IMG/VR virus record: IMGVR_UViG_3300035670_001426
Coordinates: 1-20,886 of that record
Reading direction: 5' to 3' (one strand)
DNA length: 20,886 nucleotides
Origin: a virus
Below the pieces are notes generated by a model, which made no database searches, was not told the DNA's origin, and saw only the letters and a program-made list of their open reading frames with translations. This document shows, piece after piece, positions 1 through 17,414 of the stretch. The position numbers and the translations under genes are program-made. Numbering within the stretch: the stretch's first letter is position 1; the number at the start of each line of letters is the position of its first letter.

Positions 1-3000
1 GATATTATTGACGGTATTATACGATGTACCTTGCCCACCTGCAACACCTAATTTACCGTCTTTACCCCGCTGTAAAGGTATTATTGCCTCTGGCCCTGCT
101 TCTCCCATTAAACCAGTTGCATTACGAAGTGGGAATAAGGTGGGCGAAGTCACTATACCACCTTTAGCAAAAGGCTTTACCTTTCCATCGCTTATAACAT
201 TACCTTTTGCGCTAGGCACAGCTGCTTCTGCCCCGCCTAAAAAGCTAAGTCCTGGTATGCCAGCCACTTTAGAGAGGAACATCATGGCTATTTTATTAGC
301 CATAATTTGCATAGCACTATCTAATATAGTCATAGCGAAACTTTGCATAGCCTCGCTGGCACTTTTAGCCCCTGATATAAAGTCCTTAAATGAATTAGCA
401 AAAGCCCCTTGTAGTGTAGTCCTTATTTTGTTTGCAACAACATCGCCTGTTATACCAAGTTCCTGTAATTGCCATTGTGCTTCTTCGATATTTTTAGTTA
501 ATGACTCTGGGACTGGTTGACCCGCGCCAGCTAGGGTCTCTTTTTGCTTCTTCCAAGCATCTAATGCCGCTTGCGTGTCAGCCATTAGTTGCTTGTTAAT
601 TTCAGTTTGCCGAGAAGCCCCCTCCCATTCCCCAATAAGTCCCGCCCCCATTTGCGCCTGCACAATGCTACCGCGATGCCCTGCAAGTGACCGGCTATTT
701 TCTAATGCTTTTTGAGTAGCAAGTTCTTTATCTTTAGCACTTGCTAATGCTTCATAAAGGGTCTTTTGCTGTTTAAGCAATTCAACTTGTTTGGTGGCTT
801 CGCTAGTTTTTTGCGTTTCATAGAATGCTATAGCCCTATCTAAGTCAACAGCCTTCGCTAAGTAGTCATTATAGGTCTTTGTCGGTTTGCCCAACAGCGC
901 GTCAATAGCTGCCCCGACCGTAGCCGCAGTACTTTTAGCTTGTTTTTCAAACTCTTGCGTTAGCGCAGCATACGTTCGTTGGGCTAATGCAACGTCTTTT
1001 GCCGTTTTACTCTGAATTTCTGCCCGTTCACTGTCTAATTTAAGCAGTTCAGAACTTAAAACAAGTTCCTCTTTCTGCTCTTTAGTCATCGTGGATGATT
1101 TAACAGCAGAAGCTAGCACTTTATTAACGTAGGCTTCAGCAACTCCACCTAGCGTCTTTAATCTAGCATTTATTTCTTCTTCTGTGACTTCTGCTGCTGT
1201 CTTATTTATAGAAGTCAACCATGCCCTGACGGAAGATGGCCCCTCTTTATAAGCAAGCAATGCTAATTTAATTCTGCCAAAATTCTCTATCTGCTGGTTT
1301 AGGTAAGCCTGCCCAGCTTTTTCCGTTTCCTGCAATGCGTCTACTTGAACCTGGTTTAATTCATTTTTTGCTTGCGTAGCAATTTCATGAATTATTTTGT
1401 AGGCATTATTGAAGCGTTCCTCTAGTGCTTTTCTATTATTGCCGTTTACGCCCATACCTTCAATGTAAGCTGCGCGTGTAGTTTGCATCGGCCCAATAGC
1501 AGTGCTATCAGCATTAACTAAATTGCCTCGCTGGGCCTTAGTTAATGTTCTATAGTCAGCGGTCTTTAAGCTGCTTTCTGCTAATTTAATAGCATTAGGT
1601 AATTCATCACTAAGTAATGTTATATCCTTTTTAATAGTGGAGCCAACTTCAATGAAAGTCTGATGCAACTGATTTGCATACTCTATTTCCTCTTCTTTAG
1701 ACTTTCTACTAGCTTCTGCTATTTGTTGTTGCAATTCAAGCGTCTTCTGCAAGGCTTCTTGCGGTGATATTTCACCGATGGCAGGCGATGCCTTGGTCTT
1801 TAGAGCCTCAATGTCAGCTTCCCTGGCAGCTATAAATTCTTTTAACTGCTCCCGATGAACTTGTTGATACTTTTCAAACTGTTTACGAAGCCCTTTTTCA
1901 AATGATGATACATCTTTCTCACTCATCTTGAATGCTTCAAATAGCGCAGTATTCTCCCCTGGGGCAGTTGGCTTATAGTCTGCGACAGCCTTATTAACCC
2001 TAGTTAGCTCTGCCTCTACGACGCTCTTTATTTTCTCAAAATAAGTATGGTATACAACCCTCGGGTTAGCATTCTCCGGTATAGCTAAACTTTCCCTTGT
2101 TATAGTTTCCCCAAGTACAACTATTTGCCCTTTTTGTTCATTTAATTTCTTTATAAACTCATCGACTCTACCCTTAGCTGCTGCATTTTCATTAGACAGC
2201 ATGGGTTCAGCCGATTTAGTGTAGTCTTGAAGGCTTTTTTGTGCTTGCGTGAATGCTTCAGTTACATCTTTTTGCCTTTTAAGTAAATCAATGCGCTTTA
2301 GTGCCGCTTCTTCCTCCGGTATTTTCTGCAATTCACTTAACTTATGCAATAATACATCAGTTACAACAGCTCCTTTATCTAATTGTACATTTAAGTAGCC
2401 AAGGCTAGCACCAACAGTTGTTATAGCCAATCCAGCAGGATTAAGCACTTTAGGTAGAACGGAAATAAGCGTTTGAACTGCCGCAATACCAAGTAGCCCT
2501 TCTAGGGCACCACGAACTGCACCAATGCTTTCACTGAATTTATAGGTATCGGCAGAAGCCTCCGTGAGGGCGTCTACATACGAAGTGACCCCTTTAAGTA
2601 GCGTCTTTAGAGTGTGTTCAAATGTTCTATAAACATTATCTTCAAGTTTAGTTACTGCGGTTTGGTAATCCCCTATAGCAGCATTAAGCCCTTCTCGCGC
2701 TGATTCAAATGCACTACCGCCAAAGCGTTCGGCCATAAAGCGTGAAAACGCATCAAGCTCTTTATGGGCATATACATTTCCCTTCTTCATTTCCTCCGCA
2801 AGCTGCATAGTAGTCCTACCGGTTGCAGCAGCAAAACTAGAGAACGCGCCTGGTAGGTAGTTTGAAAGCTGTTTAACTAGCTCTTCACTTTGAATTTTAC
2901 CTTTGTTAAACATCTGTGCAATGGCTAGAAATACATGCGCGGTCTTATCCCCACTAGCATGTAATGTAGTCATTACAGTGTTTATATTCTTAAAGATTTC

Positions 3001-5019
3001 CCACGTTGTCTCGACACTCTCACCCGCCATAGTTGAGGATGCCGCGAAGTTTCTGAAGTTCTCACGCAGTGTATTCACCGCAATACCTGTCCTTTTTGCT
3101 TCCTTATCTATTTTAAGGAACTGCATGGCGGATTCAGTTGCACTACCCATAGTAGCTTCTAAGCTAGCAAAGGTAGCCTCAAGTTCAATGCCCTCTTTAG
3201 GTATTTCTCGTAAAACCTCTTGTATCTTATTAGATATAGTATAAATGCTGCCCATAATAGCGTACACCTTAGTGTAATGCGCTATGCTCTGAGCAAGGTT
3301 CATATTATAGGCATTTACCTTTTCAGGGTTAGGTTCAACCGAGGCGATTGCACGCTGTAAATTCGTTAGTTGCGCCTTATAGTTACCTATAATGGCATTC
3401 CTTGCTTGCGTAGCTTCCTCTAATGTTGTTATAGTTTTATTTTTAATCTTATCATCAATAGCGGCTAAGGCGGCAGCTAGACTTTTATAAATCTCTTTCT
3501 CACGTTCAGCAAACATGAGCAATTTAGTTTCTTTAGACTCTAGTCCTGTGCGGTATACAGATAGCTCAATTTTATTGGCCATTTGTATAGACGCAACAGC
3601 TTCTTTATTAGCCTCTTTTTGCTTACGAAGCAACGCTGCTATTGCTGCTTCCTCATCCTTATAGCGTTTAATAGGCGCATAAGCCTCGATAGCTCTTGCG
3701 CTTCGTTCTTCCATAAGGGCATTTAGCTTCCTTTGTACCGTACTTTCCCTAGCAATCTTATTCTCTAAGTATTGCTGATTTACTTCATCGCGTTTAGCCT
3801 CATACTCTCTAGTAATAGCTAGCAAGTCTTGCTGATATTTTGTCTGCAATGCCTTAAGGCTATCATTGCCCCCTAGCATAACAGCCTGTTCGTGTGCTAG
3901 CGATAGCTCTACTGCTTTTTCATTATAACGCAGATATTGCGTAATCCATTCTTTTTTCTTATCATAAATTTCCTTTTCAGTTTTAATTGCGTCAATTCTA
4001 GCTTGAGTTTCACTTTGTATGGCCTTTTCAGCCTTCTCTGCACTTAACGTAACGCGATTCATCTCATTAGTTAACGCGGTTGTGTCAGCTGTTGGGCCTT
4101 CTTTTTGCGCGTTAGCAATGAGTGTTTTTATCGCAATATCAGTATTTTTACGGATTGTTAGAATGTCATGAGCGCGTTTTAGCTCTATCCCCCGTATAGT
4201 GTCTTCCCCATGTTTGGCAATAGCTATTTCAACGTCTATTTGCCCTCTATAGTCATTTATGTATTCCTTAAATAAATTACTCGTACTTTGCAGTGCTTGC
4301 TTGAATTTATCTTGTTCTGCCAGTGTTGCTTGCGCCTGCGCCTGTGCTAAACGCAATTTATCCATTGAATCGGCCACAAGGCTAGCTCTCATAGCATTTG
4401 CAAATGATACTAGCTTTTCCGGGTCTTCCGATTTATAAATTATTTCTTCTAACTCTTTAAGGTCAAGTGCCAACGAACGCATAATAGCTTTACGCTGGTT
4501 GGCATAACTGCGTATAATCCCTATACGGGTCGTTTCTCCATTTAATATAACCCTTGCGCTTTCAGATTCAAGCAATTCTTCCTGGTTAAGCAAGGCATTA
4601 CTTGTTTTCTTAAACTCACTTACAGTGGCTTTACCTCGCTCCGCTAGTTGAGCCGTAATATGTTGCGTCGTTTGCTCTTCCCCTGTGCGTAATTTACTCT
4701 CAAGGTCTCGATACTCGGACATATTAAGTATCTGCTCCTTTGATAATAGCATTTTAGCTATTCCCATATCCTGCGAGTGCAAGGCATACTTAACTTCTCC
4801 TATAGCCCTTGCTAGCGACCGTAAGTTATTTGCTTCTAATTTAAGGTCGTGGGAGAAGAAAGATTTACCACCGTCACCCTTCGATAATGTACTATAGAAG
4901 TCTTTTACATTTACTTTAAGGTCTTTGAGAAGTACAAGCAGTTCGCCGAGTTCTTCCGCAGAAGTGCCTGTCTCAGCAATAACTGAAAGTTTATAAGTGC
5001 TTGTTGTTTCAGTCGCCAT
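1..5019 (-). CDS. H: Tail tape measure protein (C-terminus beyond window)
   Basis: The frame is open from ATG 5019-5017 to the left edge, at least 1673 codons; I read it codon by codon and found no stop. Residues about 590-790 match the phage tape-measure domain (TMP_2 type), including a stretch beginning AQMFNKGKIQSEEL and continuing to YLPGAFSSFA. A hydrophobic Ala/Gly/Leu segment follows at about 834-877, as in lambda-type tape measures. The flanks are long, charged and Ala/Lys/Glu-rich, probably coiled coil. Near the edge, at about 1635-1660, lies the signature GLMGEAGPEAIIPLQRG, typical of the C-terminal region. The protein sets tail length and is thought to be threaded through the tube into the host envelope. 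An AGAGG site lies just upstream, and the start overlaps the end of GT by 11 nt, suggesting translational coupling. Homologues of lambda M, L, K, I and J would be expected further left. Confidence 0.95.
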   Translation of the reverse strand, partial: MATETTSTYKLSVIAETGTSAEELGELLVLLKDLKVNVKDFYSTLSKGDGGKSFFSHDLKLEANNLRSLARAIGEVKYALHSQDMGIAKMLLSKEQILNMSEYRDLESKLRTGEEQTTQHITAQLAERGKATVSEFKKTSNALLNQEELLESESARVILNGETTRIGIIRSYANQRKAIMRSLALDLKELEEIIYKSEDPEKLVSFANAMRASLVADSMDKLRLAQAQAQATLAEQDKFKQALQSTSNLFKEYINDYRGQIDVEIAIAKHGEDTIRGIELKRAHDILTIRKNTDIAIKTLIANAQKEGPTADTTALTNEMNRVTLSAEKAEKAIQSETQARIDAIKTEKEIYDKKKEWITQYLRYNEKAVELSLAHEQAVMLGGNDSLKALQTKYQQDLLAITREYEAKRDEVNQQYLENKIARESTVQRKLNALMEERSARAIEAYAPIKRYKDEEAAIAALLRKQKEANKEAVASIQMANKIELSVYRTGLESKETKLLMFAEREKEIYKSLAAALAAIDDKIKNKTITTLEEATQARNAIIGNYKAQLTNLQRAIASVEPNPEKVNAYNMNLAQSIAHYTKVYAIMGSIYTISNKIQEVLREIPKEGIELEATFASLEATMGSATESAMQFLKIDKEAKRTGIAVNTLRENFRNFAASSTMAGESVETTWEIFKNINTVMTTLHASGDKTAHVFLAIAQMFNKGKIQSEELVKQLSNYLPGAFSSFAAATGRTTMQLAEEMKKGNVYAHKELDAFSRFMAERFGGSAFESAREGLNAAIGDYQTAVTKLEDNVYRTFEHTLKTLLKGVTSYVDALTEASADTYKFSESIGAVRGALEGLLGIAAVQTLISVLPKVLNPAGLAITTVGASLGYLNVQLDKGAVVTDVLLHKLSELQKIPEEEAALKRIDLLKRQKDVTEAFTQAQKSLQDYTKSAEPMLSNENAAAKGRVDEFIKKLNEQKGQIVVLGETITRESLAIPENANPRVVYHTYFEKIKSVVEAELTRVNKAVADYKPTAPGENTALFEAFKMSEKDVSSFEKGLRKQFEKYQQVHREQLKEFIAAREADIEALKTKASPAIGEISPQEALQKTLELQQQIAEASRKSKEEEIEYANQLHQTFIEVGSTIKKDITLLSDELPNAIKLAESSLKTADYRTLTKAQRGNLVNADSTAIGPMQTTRAAYIEGMGVNGNNRKALEERFNNAYKIIHEIATQAKNELNQVQVDALQETEKAGQAYLNQQIENFGRIKLALLAYKEGPSSVRAWLTSINKTAAEVTEEEINARLKTLGGVAEAYVNKVLASAVKSSTMTKEQKEELVLSSELLKLDSERAEIQSKTAKDVALAQRTYAALTQEFEKQAKSTAATVGAAIDALLGKPTKTYNDYLAKAVDLDRAIAFYETQKTSEATKQVELLKQQKTLYEALASAKDKELATQKALENSRSLAGHRGSIVQAQMGAGLIGEWEGASRQTEINKQLMADTQAALDAWKKQKETLAGAGQPVPESLTKNIEEAQWQLQELGITGDVVANKIRTTLQGAFANSFKDFISGAKSASEAMQSFAMTILDSAMQIMANKIAMMFLSKVAGIPGLSFLGGAEAAVPSAKGNVISDGKVKPFAKGGIVTSPTLFPLRNATGLMGEAGPEAIIPLQRGKDGKLGVAGGQGTSYNTVNNI

Positions 5020-5796
5020 AAGAGCCTCTAATAATGCTTACAAAACCATCATGTATGTATTGAACGCTAACTAAAGTTTCCCTCAATGGAATATCGAAGT
5101 CTTTTATTAGCGCAAGCAACATCGTGGTGTCTATAGTATAGTCACTTTTGGTAAAGGGGTACAGAATCTTGTAAAGTTCAAAGACTTGTGAATTGCATTC
5201 CCATAGGTCGATAACTATCGTTTCGTCTTTTACGTCAGTAGTTACGATAGTATTGTCGCTATCAATATCTAGTAGAGCCTCTAACGCTTCTTCATCGCTT
5301 TTATTATTCAATAGTTCCTTTCGCGGGGGAGAGGAGGCTCTACCTAAAGCCTCCCCCGCTTGTCTCAGTTTCCCAGACTATCTTCTTTATAAGAAGATGC
5401 GTTAGTGATTGCGATGTTAAATGTGGCGAAAATTGCTGTTTTCCACGGCAAACTTGCGAAGTATTTATCAATCATAACTTCCAAGCATTCCTTGGGGGTT
5501 TCCCAAACACCTGGCAAAGCCTCTGCCGTTCTAGTGTCAACGATGAGTTCTTCAACTTTACCCGTCTTTGTGTCTTCAATTTCTACTTTTGCGTTACAAA
5601 TGTAGGCAATCTCAGCCTTAACAACGGCATCAAAATCAGTCAGGTTTTGCCAAGAGACAATTTTTTCTTCCATCGTTGGAATGTCATAGCGATGAAACCC
5701 TACGCTTATGCTATCTTGCGTATTCGCAGCATCTTTCGCGGTCACTTTAAGTTCAATGACGGGTGTTTGCAATTTAACGTACAACTTCTTTGACAT
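5009..5796 (-). CDS. GT: Tail assembly chaperone GT, -1 frameshift fusion
   Basis: Predicted 262-residue product: the 143 residues of G plus 119 residues in the -1 frame, entered at heptamer GGGAAAC (5374-5368) just before the G stop. The extension starts LRQAGEALGRA and continues through an acidic segment to ...IIRGSYGD. It contains an alpha-helical part with VIDLWECNSQVFELYKIL, like the T half of lambda gpGT. The lambda proteins are about 140 and 279 residues, so both lengths fit. From the family: G coats the tape measure during assembly and the T part recruits tube protein. The T-frame ORF has only a TTG at 5311 as a possible start and no evident ribosome site, so it is most likely reached only by frameshifting. 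Its stop overlaps the tape measure start. Confidence 0.85.
5323..5374 (-). promoter_or_regulatory. Programmed -1 ribosomal frameshift signal
   Basis: Read on the minus strand: slippery heptamer GGGAAAC at 5374-5368 in the frame G GGA AAC (pattern X XXY YYZ, as in lambda G GGA AAG). The zero-frame stop TGA follows at 5367-5365. After an 8-nt spacer (5367-5360) comes a GC-rich hairpin: GCGGG (5359-5355) pairs with CCCGC (5327-5323), and GGAGGCT (5354-5348) pairs with AGCCTCC (5339-5333). There is a 5-nt bulge on the 3' side and an 8-nt loop. Heptamer, frame, spacer and stem all fit a classic -1 frameshift site. Efficiency cannot be judged from sequence. Confidence 0.85.
5365..5796 (-). CDS. G: Tail assembly chaperone G (unshifted product)
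   Basis: 143 residues starting at ATG 5796-5794, with a modest AGGTAG ribosome site. The sequence is beta-rich at the N-terminus (KLYVKLQTPVIELKV) with a helical C-terminal half (ECLEVMIDKYFASLPWKTAI). I do not recognise it from residues alone. The assignment to lambda gpG rests on length (lambda G is about 140), position directly before the tape measure, and the frameshift signal at its end. The last codons are CTG GGA AAC TGA, so the slippery heptamer touches the stop codon. It probably binds and keeps soluble the long tape measure before tube polymerisation. It lies 8 nt after the holin-like gene in the same transcript. Confidence 0.8.
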   Translation of the reverse strand: MSKKLYVKLQTPVIELKVTAKDAANTQDSISVGFHRYDIPTMEEKIVSWQNLTDFDAVVKAEIAYICNAKVEIEDTKTGKVEELIVDTRTAEALPGVWETPKECLEVMIDKYFASLPWKTAIFATFNIAITNASSYKEDSLGN

Positions 5797-9012: not shown

Positions 9013-10487
9013 TTGATGACGTTTACACCATTCTGCATCGTGGGGCGACGGCTTTCGACGGTGCATCCACTAAATATAAGGAGGATATGAATAATGTCTT
9101 CTTTGGTTCGCCTGACCAGATTATAAGTAGGGAATTGTTGCTGCTTCAGCAACGTAGCTTACATGCAATTCGCAATAACGGTTATGCTAAAATTGCAAGA
9201 GATAAGTATGTGACCAATGTTGGGTCATTGAAAGTGCTTTGGCATGATAATAAAAATAGACGGCATAACCGTATGCAAGATTTATGGGATGCCTTTGCAG
9301 ATAACCCTTCTTTAGACGGCTATGGAACGCTTTGTAATTTACAAAGCCTTTGGCACTCAAGTCTTTTTTCTACTGGAAATGCTTTCACTAGAAAGTTAAT
9401 CCGGAAGGGGCGTAAAAATAGCATTGTCCCTCTTGTATTAGAGCCTATACAGAGTGAATTGCACGATTTATTCTATTTTGGCGATGGAAGAAAAACTGTT
9501 AGGCATGGGATCGGTTTTACCGATAATGTGCCTGACACGTATTACTTTAGGTTGCAAGCCTACCAAGAGTTTCCAATTATAAATAATACGCAAAACATAA
9601 CCGCTATACCATCTAATGAAGTTTTGCATTTATTTAATAGAGAGTTGCCAGGGCAATGGTTGGGCGTGCCCGTCCTTAGTAGCATTTTAATCCCTCTATA
9701 TGAGTTAGATGAACTCATGGATGCTACTGTGGCGAGGCAAAAAGCATCGCAAGCAATAAGTTGGATTATCACTAATAGCAATCCTACTAATATGATGCCA
9801 GTAGGTGTACCTATTATTGATAAAGCAGCAAATAGTAAAGAAAAGGTTGTATTTAAGGCAACCGGGTCAAATGTGCAATACCTTAATAAAGGGGAGAATA
9901 TAACCTTCCATCAGGGGGCAGACATTGGGCCTAACTTTGTTAAATTAGCTGAACTTGAGCTTCGTAGAATATCTAACGCATGTCACGTGCCCTACCATCA
10001 GCTAACGGGAGACACAAATGGCATTGACTTTAGTACACTTCGGGCACTTTTGATTGAATTACGTTCAAGAATAGAGTATACTCATCACTTTCTAACCATA
10101 CCGCTTGGGCTAGCCCCGTTAACTGCATATTTTAAGGAACTAGCGCAGCTATACTACCCAAATGTGAAGAATGCCACCCCGTCGTACCAGCTTCCGCGCT
10201 TTTACGGAGTCGATGACTTGAAGGACGCTCAAGCCGATGTACTTGAGATACAGAATGGGCTAGCTACATTAGATAGTAAATTGCAGGAAAGGCATACTAC
10301 GTTTGAGGCGATTGCTGCTGATAGGGAGCGGTTAAAGGAACTAGGATTGGATAATTTATTATTCCCAAATGGGGCAGGTAGGCCAGAGGGCAATGGCACA
10401 GGTAGGCCAGGAAGTAATGGCTCAGGTGTAACAACACCCCCTATAAAAGGGGTTACAAGTGCTACAAGTGGTGAAAACGATGTATGA
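9000..10487 (+). CDS. Portal protein, lambda gpB family
   Basis: 495 residues (lambda gpB is 533). Family features: an N-terminal helical part with NNGYAKIARDKYVTNVGS at about 59-76; the segment SNEVLHLFNRELPGQWLGVP at about 205-224, corresponding to the conserved H-F..R.GQ.RG.P region; a stem and helical region (LDELMDATVARQKASQAIS); and GDTNGIDFSTLRALL in the distal part. The last 40 residues are Gly/Pro/Ser-rich low complexity (GRPEGNGTGRPGSNGSG) and may be a flexible tail. The dodecameric portal is the vertex through which DNA enters and leaves. An AAGG site lies 7 nt before the ATG. It overlaps the protease start by 8 nt. Confidence 0.95.
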   Translation: MSNVIDDVYTILHRGATAFDGASTKYKEDMNNVFFGSPDQIISRELLLLQQRSLHAIRNNGYAKIARDKYVTNVGSLKVLWHDNKNRRHNRMQDLWDAFADNPSLDGYGTLCNLQSLWHSSLFSTGNAFTRKLIRKGRKNSIVPLVLEPIQSELHDLFYFGDGRKTVRHGIGFTDNVPDTYYFRLQAYQEFPIINNTQNITAIPSNEVLHLFNRELPGQWLGVPVLSSILIPLYELDELMDATVARQKASQAISWIITNSNPTNMMPVGVPIIDKAANSKEKVVFKATGSNVQYLNKGENITFHQGADIGPNFVKLAELELRRISNACHVPYHQLTGDTNGIDFSTLRALLIELRSRIEYTHHFLTIPLGLAPLTAYFKELAQLYYPNVKNATPSYQLPRFYGVDDLKDAQADVLEIQNGLATLDSKLQERHTTFEAIAADRERLKELGLDNLLFPNGAGRPEGNGTGRPGSNGSGVTTPPIKGVTSATSGENDV

Positions 10488-11667
10488 AAGAATACTAAAT
10501 AGGCTAGCTGCTCCTCTGTTGCTGGATGAAACAAAATTTAAGGATATTCATGATAATTTAATTTTACCGTTGACATTAGGGGAAACCCCTTCTGGAATTG
10601 CTAAAGTAACGCATGAAGCAACGAGCGAGGCAGGTAAAATTAAAGTTATAAATGTAAAGGGAACCCTTACTAGCGGTAATGCTGCCGGTGATAGCGGTAC
10701 TAGAAGCTATACAACTATCGCTAGAGATATAAAAACAGCTATTGCCGATGGCTACCGCAGTATTGCATTTAACTTTTCAACTTATGGTGGTGAAGCTGAC
10801 GGAGCTATGGGACTGGCTAAATTCATCAACTCACTACCGTCACTGTATGACGCAAAGACTATTGCAATTATAGATGGCCCTTGCTGTTCCGCAGGTTACC
10901 TGCTGGCTAGTAACACGCAAGAAATTCTATGTACTGCCGGGGCGGAACTTGGGTCAATCGGCGTAATTGCAAGCATCCCCAATAGCGTTAGCAGTGATGA
11001 AAAGACGGGAACAACCTGGACAATACTGCGAAGCCATAGTGAAAAAGCATTGGGCAATCCGCACGAACCTATTTCTGATGCGGCATTAGCCTCTATTCAG
11101 AAAAAAGTTGACAACTTAGCTAAAGTTATGATAGATACTATTGTAACTGGGCGTCCTAAATTGTCTAAAGACATTATTGCTACCTTAAATGGCAAGACTG
11201 TCCTGGGAGACGAGGCTATCTCACTTGGTCTAGCCGATGGCTTGATTGAAAGTGTAGATATAACATTAGAAATGTTAAATAGACGGTGTAAAAATATGAG
11301 TTCTTCTTTTGATAATTCATCTGCACAAGTTGACGAGACCCTGCGTCTTCGTGCGGAACTTGAAGCGGTGAAAGCTGCTTCATCTGTAGCTATTAGTAAA
11401 GCAGTGGCCGATGAACGCGCACGCTGCCTGGCCATTTTGGATGCGGCTAAGACGTTTGGCCTGTCGTCAGACGTTGCCATTAAGCAAATTAACTTATCTT
11501 CAAGCATTGAGCAAAGTGTAGCTATGTTTGAAGCGGTTAAGGAAGCTATACAAATGGCGAATCCAACTCCTGTCGCTGCTACGGCTACCCCGCAAGTAGC
11601 AGAAAGTGCCTCTAGCCCATTCGCTGAATGGATTAAAGGTAATGAATTTTTGGCATCAATTAAGTGA
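10480..11667 (+). CDS. S49 (SppA-like) head maturation protease, lambda gpC-like
   Basis: 395 residues from ATG 10480, preferred over upstream in-frame GTGs because GGTGA lies 5-6 nt before it and the ATGTATGA overlap with the portal stop is typical coupling. The protease domain has a crotonase/Clp-like fold: FNFSTYGGEADG, then IDGPCCSAGYLLAS with nucleophile S137, then ELGSIGVI, then SHSEKALGNP with probable catalytic K189 (Ser-Lys dyad of S49). After about residue 272 comes a helical, Ala/Glu-rich part that doubles as the scaffold from an internal start. Lambda gpC (439 residues) has the same fused layout. It cleaves capsid proteins during procapsid maturation. The residue before the nucleophile is Cys rather than the usual Ala. 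Confidence 0.93.
   Translation: MYERILNRLAAPLLLDETKFKDIHDNLILPLTLGETPSGIAKVTHEATSEAGKIKVINVKGTLTSGNAAGDSGTRSYTTIARDIKTAIADGYRSIAFNFSTYGGEADGAMGLAKFINSLPSLYDAKTIAIIDGPCCSAGYLLASNTQEILCTAGAELGSIGVIASIPNSVSSDEKTGTTWTILRSHSEKALGNPHEPISDAALASIQKKVDNLAKVMIDTIVTGRPKLSKDIIATLNGKTVLGDEAISLGLADGLIESVDITLEMLNRRCKNMSSSFDNSSAQVDETLRLRAELEAVKAASSVAISKAVADERARCLAILDAAKTFGLSSDVAIKQINLSSSIEQSVAMFEAVKEAIQMANPTPVAATATPQVAESASSPFAEWIKGNEFLASIK
11296..11667 (+). CDS. Nested scaffold protein (Nu3-like) from internal start in protease gene
   Basis: An in-frame ATG at 11296 inside the protease gene is preceded by GGTG with a 7-nt spacing. It would give a 123-residue protein starting MSSSFDNSSAQVDETLRLRA, rich in Ala, Glu and helix formers, ending in EWIKGNEFLASIK. 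Lambda Nu3 is made in exactly this way from the 3' part of gene C and scaffolds gpE assembly. The start lies at the junction between the protease domain and the helical tail, where it is expected. Inference from architecture and ribosome site; no direct proof from sequence. Confidence 0.6.
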   Translation: MSSSFDNSSAQVDETLRLRAELEAVKAASSVAISKAVADERARCLAILDAAKTFGLSSDVAIKQINLSSSIEQSVAMFEAVKEAIQMANPTPVAATATPQVAESASSPFAEWIKGNEFLASIK

Positions 11668-11675
11668 GGTGACTT

Positions 11676-12476
11676 ATGGCTAATTGGAATGGTGGGTGGC
11701 GGTCATACCCGAACCGCCCGACTATCGCATCTTTGCGTACTTTCTTTAGGGCAGAAGCGCATAGCACTAAACCGCTTACTATTAAAGCAGGTCAAGTGCT
11801 TCGTAAACATAGCTTTGTTGAAACTGACGCAGCAGGCTTGGGTGTAGCTCATACCGGTATGGCTGAAAAAGCCCTGCTTACTTTTACCGCAGGCGTAGGT
11901 GCAGCAAAGACTGTTATCATCGCCGGTCTTACCTTCACCACTACTGGCATCGTAAGTGCCGCCGATGTAGTTAAGGCATTTAGCGGCCTTACTGACGGCA
12001 TGACGGCGGCAGAAGCTAATGCGGCTAACGCTGTGGCAGGTGGAAGTTTCACCGCAGGCGCACTGACAGGGTTTCATACCTATAAGAGCAGCACTGCTAA
12101 TAGCGTTCTGTTCGTTTCAACGTCACCTAACACTAATGTAACTGACCTTGCTGATGCAGGTAACTCAACGGTCACTAGCGTCACCGTCGTAGCATACCCT
12201 AATCCGCAAAAGAAGATTGCCGGTGTTCTGTTGATGGATGTTGACGCTAGTGCGGGTGACGTTGACACGACTGTGTATAAGGAAGCTAGCTTTTATGCAA
12301 GTGCCCTTGTGTGGGAAGCTGACGCAACCGATACTATTGAACTTGCTGACGGCACTACTGTAGCTTGTACTGATTACAATGTCGGTGCATTCACTGATGC
12401 TGCAAAACGTAAGTTTGTAGAGAACACTGAATTTGAAGAACTTGGTATTTTGAAAGCAGGGGAAGATTATGTCTAA
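11676..12476 (+). CDS. Capsid decoration protein, gpD-like, with inserted beta domain
   Basis: 266 residues, about twice the usual size for the gpD family (lambda D is 110). The N-terminal half of the decoration fold is at about 32-62 (KPLTIKAGQVLRK...GVAHT). The second half resumes at about 177 (QKKIAGVLLMDVDASAGDVD, then YKEASFYASALVWEAD) and ends with FEELGILKAGEDYV. Between them, about residues 66-175 form a Thr/Ala/Val-rich beta module (IIAGLTFTTTGIVSAADVVK ... SVLFVSTSPNTNVTDLAD). It stabilises the expanded capsid by trimerising on its surface, so the insertion is probably displayed outward. GAGGTGA lies 5 nt before the ATG, one of the strongest ribosome sites in the window, fitting high expression. 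It overlaps the major capsid start by 8 nt. Confidence 0.85.
   Translation: MANWNGGWRSYPNRPTIASLRTFFRAEAHSTKPLTIKAGQVLRKHSFVETDAAGLGVAHTGMAEKALLTFTAGVGAAKTVIIAGLTFTTTGIVSAADVVKAFSGLTDGMTAAEANAANAVAGGSFTAGALTGFHTYKSSTANSVLFVSTSPNTNVTDLADAGNSTVTSVTVVAYPNPQKKIAGVLLMDVDASAGDVDTTVYKEASFYASALVWEADATDTIELADGTTVACTDYNVGAFTDAAKRKFVENTEFEELGILKAGEDYV
11871..12200 (+). other. Inserted S-layer-like beta module in decoration protein
   Basis: Codes residues about 66-175 of the decoration protein. The pattern is a strand with G-L-T-F-T-x-T-G, a helix with VSAADVVKAFSGL, a spacer, then FTAGALTGFHTYKSS and a strand ending SPNTNVTDL. This pattern is familiar from beta-strand repeat proteins of bacterial surfaces. 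Related segments occur in the tail tube protein (15195-15482 and 16293-17033). Boundaries are approximate. Confidence 0.6.
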
Positions 12477-13692
12477 TATGCAATTTGCTGATCCGTATTC
12501 AGCACAAAAGATTCTGTCCGGGGTAATTCGTGCCCTGAATGATGGACAGCCGAAGCGGCCTAATTGGTTGCAGTCATTCTACCCAACGAATGCTGCTCTC
12601 ATCAATGATAGAACTGTTAACTTCGACCAGCAGCTATCAGTTCGCAATGTCATGGGTACGTTTGCATTGCCGAATGCTGACGTTAACCCTGTTTCATTGC
12701 CGACCTATGGGCATAAAGAGCATAGCTTCAGCTACGCTAAGGAAAGTGTAACTGACGGTGATGATGATTTTGAAACGCTCAATATGCGCGAAATGGGGCA
12801 GCAGTTCGGCCAACCTAACATTGCCGCTAATATGGCTATGCGGTTGAATGCTAAGTTTGCAGCAGTTGAACAGCGTTTTGAAAACTTGTTTGAACTGGTT
12901 GCTTCGCAAATTCTGCTTTATGGCGGTTATGGTGCAAAAAGCGAGTATTACCCGCTTTATGTATATGACTTTGAACGGTCTGTATGTAATAAATACAGTG
13001 ACATTAAGACGGATAAGGATACTCTTGTCTCTAGTGTAAACTTGACTACTTCACCTGTCACTGCTCCTTGGGATGCTTCACGAGTTATCCTGCCCGTTAT
13101 TGCTTCTGCCGGTGCTGCTTATACCGCCGGTGAGAAAGCCTGGACGAAAGCAAACGTCGATGCTGGCACCGCTACGCCCTATAAAGACTTGTTGCAAATG
13201 ATCTTGACTTGTAATGAGTGGTCGCGTGCAGATATGGTTCACATGAGCCAAGATGCTTATGAAGTTTTCAATTATGATATTGAAAAGAACTATAAGGAAG
13301 CGGCTGTAACCACCACGCTTGCTATGCTGCAAATTGAACGGGATATTTTGCCGCGTATGCAAAGTGTCGATGACTTGCACTTTCAGCGCAACATTAGCCT
13401 TGGTGGTGGCATTAACCTACCCATTTACACTTATAAAGCTATTTATCATAACCGTAATACTGGTGAGCGCACTCGCTACATTGGTAATGGTTGGGTTAGT
13501 GTTATTCCTAACTCAGGTTATGTTAAAGCCTACGGTAGAATTATGCACCGTAAAGCCAACTATTCCGCTATGCCGCGTTGGATAAATAGCTGGATGGATG
13601 AGAAAACGGGTGTGCAGCAGTGGGAATGGCATACTAACTTTGTTATGGCAAATTCTGCTATAAACAGCCTCGTTACGTGGAAAGTTGCATAA
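12469..13692 (+). CDS. Major capsid protein, lambda gpE family
   Basis: 407 residues (lambda gpE is 341), with the HK97 fold expected from the family. The N-terminal arm holds NFDQQLSVRNVMGTFALPNA. A long helix follows, with MREMGQQFGQPNIAANMAMR and then FAAVEQRFENLFELVASQIL, the spine. The peripheral domain contains CNEWSRADMVHMSQDAYEVF, like the conserved segment near the A-domain, and the C-terminal part reads RYIGNGWVSVIPNSGYVKAYGR. It builds the icosahedral shell around the scaffold. The call also follows from position directly after the decoration gene (lambda D-E). The GGGGAAG site is close to the ATG. A 12-bp gap separates it from the next gene. Confidence 0.93.
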   Translation: MSNMQFADPYSAQKILSGVIRALNDGQPKRPNWLQSFYPTNAALINDRTVNFDQQLSVRNVMGTFALPNADVNPVSLPTYGHKEHSFSYAKESVTDGDDDFETLNMREMGQQFGQPNIAANMAMRLNAKFAAVEQRFENLFELVASQILLYGGYGAKSEYYPLYVYDFERSVCNKYSDIKTDKDTLVSSVNLTTSPVTAPWDASRVILPVIASAGAAYTAGEKAWTKANVDAGTATPYKDLLQMILTCNEWSRADMVHMSQDAYEVFNYDIEKNYKEAAVTTTLAMLQIERDILPRMQSVDDLHFQRNISLGGGINLPIYTYKAIYHNRNTGERTRYIGNGWVSVIPNSGYVKAYGRIMHRKANYSAMPRWINSWMDEKTGVQQWEWHTNFVMANSAINSLVTWKVA

Positions 13693-15083: not shown

Positions 15084-17414
15084 ATGAGTGTTGTACGGTT
15101 TCACGAAAAAGCAGTGCAGATATTTGCCTGTAAACAAAATGCAGAATTTAATAGTGCTGTAAAAAGCCTTGAAGACACTACGGGTACCGTGCAGTTTGGT
15201 AGCTCAAAAGTGCTTACTGTTCCCGCGCTTGCTACTGGTAATGTGCTTACTATTGGCACAGTTACATTTACTGCGAGTGGTGCTGTAAGCGCAGCCGACC
15301 TTAAGCGTCGTTTGTTGGATGATGCGGTAGCAGTTACAAACCTTACTGTAAGTGCAGGGACGTTACCGATTCTTGAGGATATTGGTGGGGCACAGGTATT
15401 GGTATTTAGTCCTGGTTCTGCTACGTTTTCAACGGTAATTAGTGGCACAGGAGTAACGCTAACACTCTCAGACGCATCAACTAAATACGTTGTTGGTGGG
15501 CCTGATTGCCGTTTTAAGTATCAAGAGGCTGAGGGGGATGGACTGGGCCAAGCTACGGTTGGTATGTATATTAGGCGTGGTGGCGCAACAGATGTTAATA
15601 TCGGTAGAATCGAATCTATATTGACGAACACTGTTTTGCTTTTGGAAAACCTTGACGATACTGCCAGGGCAACAGAAAATAAATACTTTGATTACTCTTT
15701 CGACTTCGGCCCTAAAAATGCCGTAGCAGTGCTAAACTTGACGTATTCACTTGAAACTACAAGTGAAGCCTTTTTGTATAGCGGGGATGAAAATGAGATT
15801 GATGAAAAAACCGTCATTACTGACCGCTATGGTAAGATTGATTTTGAAACCTTTGTTCCCGCAGTAGATACGGCTTATGCAAGCAAGACGCTAGTTGGCG
15901 ACTACATACCTATGGGTGACTTCTTTAATGCCACGGGCCTTAAAGCAGATACAAGTGTGGCTGGAAGCGTTACTTACACTACAGAAAATTCAGTAGATTC
16001 TTATTTAACTATTGAAATTCGTCGTTCATCATCTTCAAGTACTTTCAACACGCAAGAAAAGGCATTTACCTATACTGACGTTAGGGGGACTGTTGATTTT
16101 GACGCAGTTATCGGTACTAAGGCTAAGTTGAAATGGGCCTTTATGGGTAACTTTAAGCGAGTAACTGATAAACAGCGCATAACGCCTGACCCGGCTACTA
16201 GAGCGTTGCAGAAGTCTCGTATTGCTGCAAACATTTCAGCTGACTCGTTGGACACTTGTCAGATGGACTTGGAAAGTTTTGCTACAAAAATTCAGTTTTT
16301 GTCTAGTTTGCCTGCCGGAGGGGGCATTTCATTAGGTGGGTTAAAACTTAATGCAACAAGCGCAATAACTGTTAGTGACCTTACCAGATACTTTACAAAT
16401 GGAATTGAAGGACTGCCTAATGGCATGGAAGCCTCTGCATTAAATAAGCTGTTTGGGTTTGGTAAAAAGTATAAAATTACACTTCCAGCAACTATTAGCG
16501 CAGGGCAGTCTGTTACGGTAGGAAACTACGTTTTAACCGTAAAAACAGGTAGGGCAGATAGAACTGCCGCAAATATAGCTAATATACTAATCGCTCTTGG
16601 GTCTGAAAAAGGTGAAACACCGGCTAACCTGGCAAAAGTAAACGCTAATTACACAAATTTTACAGTAACCCTTCGAGAGGCCAACGACTACCCCACAGGG
16701 TCTACTATAAAAGCCATCTTAGCTTCTTACACAATCTCTAATGTCGATGGAGAAACTGGACAAGTGTATTTTTCTGGAACTAGCATAAATGGAACATCAA
16801 GTGTGCCTTCCGAGTTTGCTAGAACTACGGCAACGTCAGGTGTAACTTCTGCGATTATAGCGGCAAATTATTTCACAGGTGCTTTGGCTGGTTACACTAC
16901 AACCAAAGATAAAGCTACTGATACCGTTGTGTTTTCACCTGTTTTGCCAAATAGAGGGACTACGGCATTGCCTGTTGATGGTTCCGTGGCCTCAACAAGT
17001 AGTTCTGGTGACGTTAGTATTAGCATAGGCTCTATATCAAAAGCCAGTGCCCTTACTATGGTCGATGGACGCAAGAATGTCTGCTTTGATAAACTTTCAT
17101 CGCCCAACTTCAGTAGCAAAGAATATGTTAGGATTCAAACGGGTTGTGGTGACGGTTGGTCACGCGGTTCCGTCCCAACTGACGTAAGCCTTACCATCAC
17201 TGAAGAACAGGCGAACGCATCTTATAATCCTGACAATCACTTGGAAGAAGACCATGCGCTTTACGTTAAATGGACTAGCGGAAGTGGCTACGTGCTGGTT
17301 AAATTTAACAAATTGCAACTTGTTAAAGTAACTAATAGCACTGTTGGTAACTATGCCGGACAAGACCTTTCTTTCAGAAAGATTGGCATATCTTCAATTA
17401 CGCTGAAGGGCTAA
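15084..17414 (+). CDS. Tail tube-like protein with two beta-rich insertions
   Basis: 776 residues, about three times lambda gpV (246). The position after the U-like gene and a strong GAGGT site 7 nt before the ATG suit the major tail tube subunit. The core is residues about 1-37, 134-403 and 651-776. It includes GQATVGMYIRRGGATDVNIG, a stretch with KLKWAFMGNFKRVTDKQRIT, and a C-terminal part with NKLQLVKVTNSTVGNYAGQD and SFRKIGISSITLKG, which resembles the end of tube or tail-sheath-like subunits. Two Thr/Ser/Ala/Gly-rich insertions, residues about 38-133 and 404-650, resemble the module in the decoration protein. Tube subunits stack as hexameric rings around the tape measure. It could alternatively be a tail-surface protein while another gene makes the tube. 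Confidence 0.65.
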   Translation: MSVVRFHEKAVQIFACKQNAEFNSAVKSLEDTTGTVQFGSSKVLTVPALATGNVLTIGTVTFTASGAVSAADLKRRLLDDAVAVTNLTVSAGTLPILEDIGGAQVLVFSPGSATFSTVISGTGVTLTLSDASTKYVVGGPDCRFKYQEAEGDGLGQATVGMYIRRGGATDVNIGRIESILTNTVLLLENLDDTARATENKYFDYSFDFGPKNAVAVLNLTYSLETTSEAFLYSGDENEIDEKTVITDRYGKIDFETFVPAVDTAYASKTLVGDYIPMGDFFNATGLKADTSVAGSVTYTTENSVDSYLTIEIRRSSSSSTFNTQEKAFTYTDVRGTVDFDAVIGTKAKLKWAFMGNFKRVTDKQRITPDPATRALQKSRIAANISADSLDTCQMDLESFATKIQFLSSLPAGGGISLGGLKLNATSAITVSDLTRYFTNGIEGLPNGMEASALNKLFGFGKKYKITLPATISAGQSVTVGNYVLTVKTGRADRTAANIANILIALGSEKGETPANLAKVNANYTNFTVTLREANDYPTGSTIKAILASYTISNVDGETGQVYFSGTSINGTSSVPSEFARTTATSGVTSAIIAANYFTGALAGYTTTKDKATDTVVFSPVLPNRGTTALPVDGSVASTSSSGDVSISIGSISKASALTMVDGRKNVCFDKLSSPNFSSKEYVRIQTGCGDGWSRGSVPTDVSLTITEEQANASYNPDNHLEEDHALYVKWTSGSGYVLVKFNKLQLVKVTNSTVGNYAGQDLSFRKIGISSITLKG
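15195..15482 (+). other. First beta module inserted in the tail tube protein
   Basis: Codes residues about 38-133. VLTVPALATGNVLTIGTVTF leads into TASGAVSAADLKRRL, then QVLVFSPGSATFSTVIS. The strand-then-SAAD-helix order matches LTFTTTGIVSAADVVK of the decoration protein (11871-12200). Boundaries are approximate and set by where the tube-like core breaks off and resumes. Confidence 0.55.
16293..17033 (+). other. Second, compound beta insertion in the tail tube protein
   Basis: Codes residues about 404-650. Three related segments are visible: ISLGGLKLNATSAITVSDLT (about 415-434); QSVTVGNYVLTVKTGRADRT with a following AANIANIL helix (about 475-502); and NYFTGALAGYTTTKDKATDT with VVFSPVLPN (about 595-623). 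The last matches FTAGALTGFHTYKSS ... SVLFVSTSPN of the decoration protein closely in order and spacing. Confidence 0.55.

Follow-up and report, generated by a model that had tools for sequence, protein, structure and literature searches.

Does one phage carry the same inserted domain on its head and on its tail, and what would such a domain do there? This question is raised by a stretch of viral DNA of 20,886 nucleotides (IMG/VR virus record IMGVR_UViG_3300035670_001426), which was analyzed at its full length and is called the window here. A preliminary description, made from the sequence alone, had claimed that a gpD-like capsid decoration protein is split by about 110 residues and that matching segments occur in the tail tube-like protein of the same phage. 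The head genes concerned are the following.

10459..11667, plus strand: S49-type head maturation protease (Pfam Peptidase_S49, 1e-15; PHROG 53, 1e-56)
11676..12476, plus strand: lambda gpD-type head decoration protein with insert, 266 aa (HDPD, Foldseek, gene order)
11859..12209, plus strand: inserted beta-alpha-beta surface module, residues 62-178 (alignments, tree, predicted structure)
12469..13692, plus strand: major capsid protein of the lambda gpE type (Pfam Phage_cap_E, 4e-7; PHROG 29, 3e-12)

The open reading frame at 11676-12476 is located between the genes for the S49-type head protease and the gpE-type capsid protein. The window shares this order of protease, D and E genes with lambda (C-D-E). 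Pfam HDPD matched the encoded protein with an E value of 8e-4 and 19.9 bits, below the gathering cutoff of 29.1. Residues 30-220 were aligned to profile positions 21-102 only, which implies a large insert. An AlphaFold model based on a 25-sequence alignment had a mean pLDDT of 81. Its best PDB matches in Foldseek were the decoration protein of YSD1 (prob 0.99) and lambda gpD (prob 0.98), and these proteins of 108-124 aa were stretched over 236-261 alignment columns. The direct profile alignment of the window protein with lambda gpD was collinear and not significant. On the basis of the predicted structure the protein can be assigned with confidence to the lambda gpD-type head decoration proteins, with an insert interrupting the fold. 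It resembles lambda gpD and YSD1_16 (beta-tulip) in core size and, according to Foldseek, in core fold, but adds a domain of 117 residues which the known structures do not contain. A weak profile alignment maps the insert loop near residues 50-57 of lambda gpD. In two related loci the gene before gpD (L004:1939-3189 and L082:2818-3780) apparently encodes a head protease of a non-S49 type; portal, gpD and capsid protein are still homologous there despite the other protease type.

The insert comprises approximately 117 residues (about 62-178), compared with the segment 11871-12200 (residues 66-175) of the preliminary description. Its boundaries could be set because homologues without the insert exist. 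The motifs GLTFTTTG (84-91), SAAD (94-97), FTAGALTGF (125-133) and SPNTNVTDL (150-158) all lie within it. Strands were predicted at residues 65-70, 79-82, 85-89, 123-127, 133-137, 143-148 and 167-172, with helices at 95-102 and 111-117 between them. The pLDDT of the insert was mostly 84-93 and dropped to 64-74 around residues 151-180, near its C-terminal end. Searches of viral contigs yielded about 25 distinct gpDs with the insert and five without it (L025, L028, L029, L030 and L054), the latter sharing 53-65% core identity with the window protein. The insertion site is fixed between the conserved motifs AHxG and KIAGV. The insert-free gpD of L028 reads ...AHSGVVGGKKIAGV..., and the window protein reads ...AHTGM-(insert)-KKIAGV... 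at this position. A tree of the gpD cores contained at least three changes of insert state, of which the starred branches force only one. By these alignments the segment is inserted at a fixed loop, where gpDs either have it or do not. The split of the gpD-like fold was recognized correctly; HDPD alignment and Foldseek confirm it, and the insert-free homologues extend the insert to about 117 residues.

The second protein in question is encoded further downstream, together with the following features.

15084..17414, plus strand: tail tube protein of the T5 pb6 / P74-26 type, 776 aa, with two inserted regions (Foldseek; homologues of 409-419 aa)
15183..15494, plus strand: module copy in the N-terminal tube socket, residues ~34-137 (hhalign against the gpD-module profile; empty site in relatives)
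16278..17063, plus strand: central tube insert, residues ~399-660, probable nested module pair (absent or replaced in relatives; hhalign above 200/200 permutations)
16287..16415, plus strand: outer module, first half, profile positions 6-49 (i-Evalue 2.5, weak alone; predicted E-E-H, low confidence)
16473..16811, plus strand: inner module, profile positions 6 to ~89-104 (i-Evalue 0.077; 0.0097 in the sister L008)
16824..17003, plus strand: outer module, second half, YFTGALAGYTTT...VVFSPVLPNRGTTAL (i-Evalue 0.03; 2.5e-4 in the sister L008)

In Foldseek the tube model matched the T5 tail tube 9iny first (E value 2.9e-5), followed by the tail tubes of P74-26, DT57C and SH-Ab15497, at a model pLDDT of only 50, which means low confidence. 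Judged by its predicted fold, which it shares with the T5 pb6 and P74-26 tail tubes, the protein is a tail tube like T5 pb6. T5 pb6 possesses a C-terminal Big_2 domain; the modules of the window tube are instead placed in internal loops. The tubes of L006 and L007 have 409-419 aa and do not contain the inserts of the window, and some tube homologues match PHROG tail-fiber families. A GTI-type module (TTGTV...RFKYQEAEGDGLGQATVGMYI) encloses the N-terminal copy, whose hhalign score against the gpD-module profile was above 200/200 column permutations. In the central insert, an inner module likely interrupts an outer one. Nesting is called likely since the central pieces are individually weak; for the second half of the outer module hhalign gave P values of 5e-4 to 6e-4.

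Several other features of these tubes were observed. The loci L006 and L007 have connector, tube and gpG-like gene on one strand, with the last of these directly after the tube. In the window the tape-measure-like gene (1-5019) and the gpG-like gene (5365-5796), labeled from the look of their sequences and their position, are located on the minus strand, opposite to the tube at 15084-17414, which suggests a rearrangement of the tail cassette. An extra insertion of about 200 residues, for which no known relative was seen, stands beside the module in the tubes of L018 (11685-13643), L019 and L021-L024. In L010 (9541-11232) the tube includes a Gly-rich linker, and its C-terminus is extended by about 130 residues in the manner of a tail-fibre tip.

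When gpD and the window tube were compared by pairwise BLASTP, the best E value was 0.03, too weak to decide. A profile was constructed from gpD inserts only and run on 1,684 frames of at least 80 residues from 64 related loci and the window. Besides the gpDs, only tubes were found at E values below 1e-3, namely those of L020 (3e-19), L012 (3.5e-15), L018 (1e-6), L002 and L008 (1e-6), L023 (5e-5), L022 and L024 (2e-4 to 5e-4), and the window and L009 (8e-4). Among these is a near-identical sister tube of the window, at 1e-6. A reverse search with a tube module as query led to the gpD of another phage. Together with relatives of both gpD and tube that do not contain the insert, these matches make us confident, as far as profiles can tell, that members of one module family reside as inserts in both the head decoration protein and the tail tube, two scaffolds of the virion which are unrelated to each other. 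The shared-module observation of the preliminary description is real and stronger than stated. Its term "phage-specific" was an understatement, as many phages share the arrangement.

The sockets of the tube differ in content between relatives. At the N-terminal site, L010 and L006 have the GTI-type module without the insert. The central socket is empty in L006 and L034 and holds another module type in L007, L039, L049 and L050; altogether, other modules occupy sockets in the tubes of L006, L007, L034, L049 and L050. In L012 and the L018 group the module is found at different tube sites. The pattern of relatives that have the module, are without it or contain another one suggests an exchangeable surface attachment. 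A small repeat module of the VISSGTTATVTAPGHGLSNGNxVTISGATG type was also noticed (L049:1862-3343, L050:7908-9380, L007:11609-12838 and L039:79-1308). It is found at the central tube socket, in L049 and L050 also at a third, C-terminal socket, and recurs in two further proteins of L050 (14445-15503 and 15496-16665).

Inserts and cores were also compared for their rates of divergence. The tube cores of the window and L008 are 98-100% identical (residues 206-398 and 661-776), whereas their central inserts are 54% identical (59% in DNA). This contrast reflects either insert exchange or very rapid divergence. For the L009 tube the values are 93-96% in the cores and 82% in the inserts. The gpDs of L018 and L026 share 95% of their core and 62% of their module residues, and in 283 of 300 pairs, which are not independent of each other, the conservation of the gpD module was below that of the core. 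Inserts thus diverge faster than cores, and in some cases near-identical cores seem to have exchanged them. The closest match of the L020 tube module is the gpD module of L012, and that of the L012 tube module is the gpD module of L015. A recent duplication between gpD and tube within one genome is unsupported, since the copy from the same genome is seldom the closest one (ranks 10, 8, 16 and 2 of 22). The different tube insertion sites favor several insertion events. Several independent tube origins were also favored by the tree, in which a single tube clade was not rejected (p-AU 0.16). It is possible, and we put it forward tentatively, that head decoration proteins and tail tubes draw on a pool of uncharacterized surface modules, which pass between the two scaffolds inside one phage and from phage to phage through repeated insertion, nesting and the exchange of alleles at fixed sockets.

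To which family does the module belong? Profile searches against Pfam, PHROG, NCBIfam and PDB gave no meaningful match. No match was obtained with gpD and the modules by tblastn against phage and plasmid collections, and none was confirmed in a scan of bacterial-genome contigs, both of which are insensitive searches. PhiJL001 gp68 was a structural match. In the cultured Rhodobacter phage RcTitan, to which a structural lead pointed, phrog_28344 matches both gp13 and the tail tube gp17 (Phage_tube_2, 1.7e-20), which contains two module copies. Gp13, encoded two genes after the major capsid protein, is presumably a head-surface protein, judging from this position and a match to the head family phrog_10405 (1.5e-7). 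The genes sharing the module are at L065:8559-9128 and L065:10535-12748. By sequence comparison RcTitan is a probable second case of the head-and-tail arrangement with a different module; there, the tail tube has one module in common with the product of a gene located shortly after the capsid gene. The RcTitan module is homologous to the contractile sheath extension domain, SED (hhalign P value 8.5e-8), which in Milano gp20 comprises residues 91-203 and is external (PMC10811340). The window module resembles these external inserted domains in its apparent strand-helix order. Its hhalign comparisons with SEDs (6/200 permutations reached the real score) and with the RcTitan-type module (1/200) were not significant, and Foldseek matched the window gpD model to the A-1(L) sheath with prob 0.84 and an E value of 0.095. 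Kinship to SEDs is therefore suggestive at best.

The preliminary description had compared the module to the Ig-like domains of Hoc and gpV. This comparison is good for the logic, not for membership, because helices 95-102 and 111-117 lie between the strands and no Ig-family Pfam match was found. Like the module, the Ig-like domains on Hoc, pb10, gpV, pb6 and gp17.1 of SPP1 are accessory on head and tail, in their case of unrelated phages, and often dispensable. They are appended, whereas the window module is inserted in internal loops, and in contrast to them the same module family is present on head and tail of one phage. The tail tube YSD1_22 also has a beta-rich domain inside a siphophage tail-tube protein; this domain 2, however, is Ig-like and brace-like and was not reported on the head there.

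We consider it rather probable that the module is a portable domain of gpD and tube loops which is displayed outward and binds weakly and multivalently to something outside the phage. It would be a self-contained unit in a loop of the lambda gpD-type decoration protein, and the T5-type tail tube of this phage would carry diverged copies in loops at its surface. If lambda gpD and T5 pb6 are a guide, the module would project outward from capsid and tail, so that hundreds of copies may be displayed per virion. Ig-like domains on heads and tails were proposed as weak binders of cell-surface carbohydrate (PMC7602432, PMC8718954), and the module might act like those of Hoc, gpV and pb6. Candidate ligands are host envelope glycans, capsule and matrix, and binding would keep the virion close to the cell until specific adsorption takes place. 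The suggestion of the preliminary description that host surface, mucus or glycans are bound is plausible by this analogy; the module showed no similarity to any known carbohydrate-binding family.

The strongest competitor is a structural brace which links gpD trimers on the head and subunits or rings on the tail and serves stability instead of binding. Domain 2 of the YSD1 tail tube is such an inserted beta-sandwich bracing neighboring subunits (PMC7385642, PMC8718954), and gpD proteins stabilize heads (PMC7602432). In addition, among the three closest phages the gpD modules are 97-98% identical, a degree of conservation equal to that of the core; this is just as compatible with a structural role and counts against display. 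On the other hand, relatives manage without the module, several unrelated modules occur at one socket, and the inserts diverge much more than the cores, which is unusual for interface elements. We regard a brace as unlikely, though deserving serious attention. Presence and absence, replacement by other modules and fast divergence appear to fit a binding role better than a fixed brace. Acquisition from bacterial S-layer or adhesin repeats, with mimicry of the host surface, is improbable. The S-layer likeness named in the preliminary description, from the impression of a beta-rich GLTFTA... / NVTDL pattern, is unsupported; no match was found in Pfam, NCBIfam, PDB, plasmids or the bacterial-genome scan, which is weak counter-evidence as these searches are insensitive.

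Two further explanations concern the inserts themselves. A shared Thr/Ala/Gly-rich beta composition would agree with the weak pairwise BLASTP result of the window and with several single pieces of its tube that are non-significant alone. However, the profile matched tubes of other phages over its full length with 66 and 53 bits. Local shuffles of seven tubes (300 each, 2,100 in total) reached 8.0 bits at best, compared with 16.6-66 bits for the real sequences; for the window tube 0/300 attained the real 16.6 bits, with a maximum of -0.3 bits. The hhalign scores of the window-type tube inserts exceeded 200/200 column permutations, none of which attained the real values. Composition is thus a very improbable explanation. 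That the inserts are integral parts of the gpD and tube cores in the window lineage, as their occurrence in all five gpD sequences of the first search might suggest, is refuted by the five insert-free gpDs and by the tubes of L006, L034 and L010 without the window's inserts, and can practically be dismissed. The refutation foreseen in the preliminary description has therefore failed.

Surface domains on phage heads and tails are already known as a theme, of which the putatively displayed module described here is a further variant. With it, a second domain class would join the Ig-like domains in virion surface display. The natural sequences show that head and tail scaffolds can accept one and the same module, and the insert sites indicate where gpD and T5-type tubes naturally tolerate an insertion. 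Related proteins of which one has the insert and the other does not, and near-identical phages whose inserts differ, amount to natural experiments on the role of the domain. If modules are indeed exchanged between the two scaffolds, heads and tails would be dressed from a common wardrobe.
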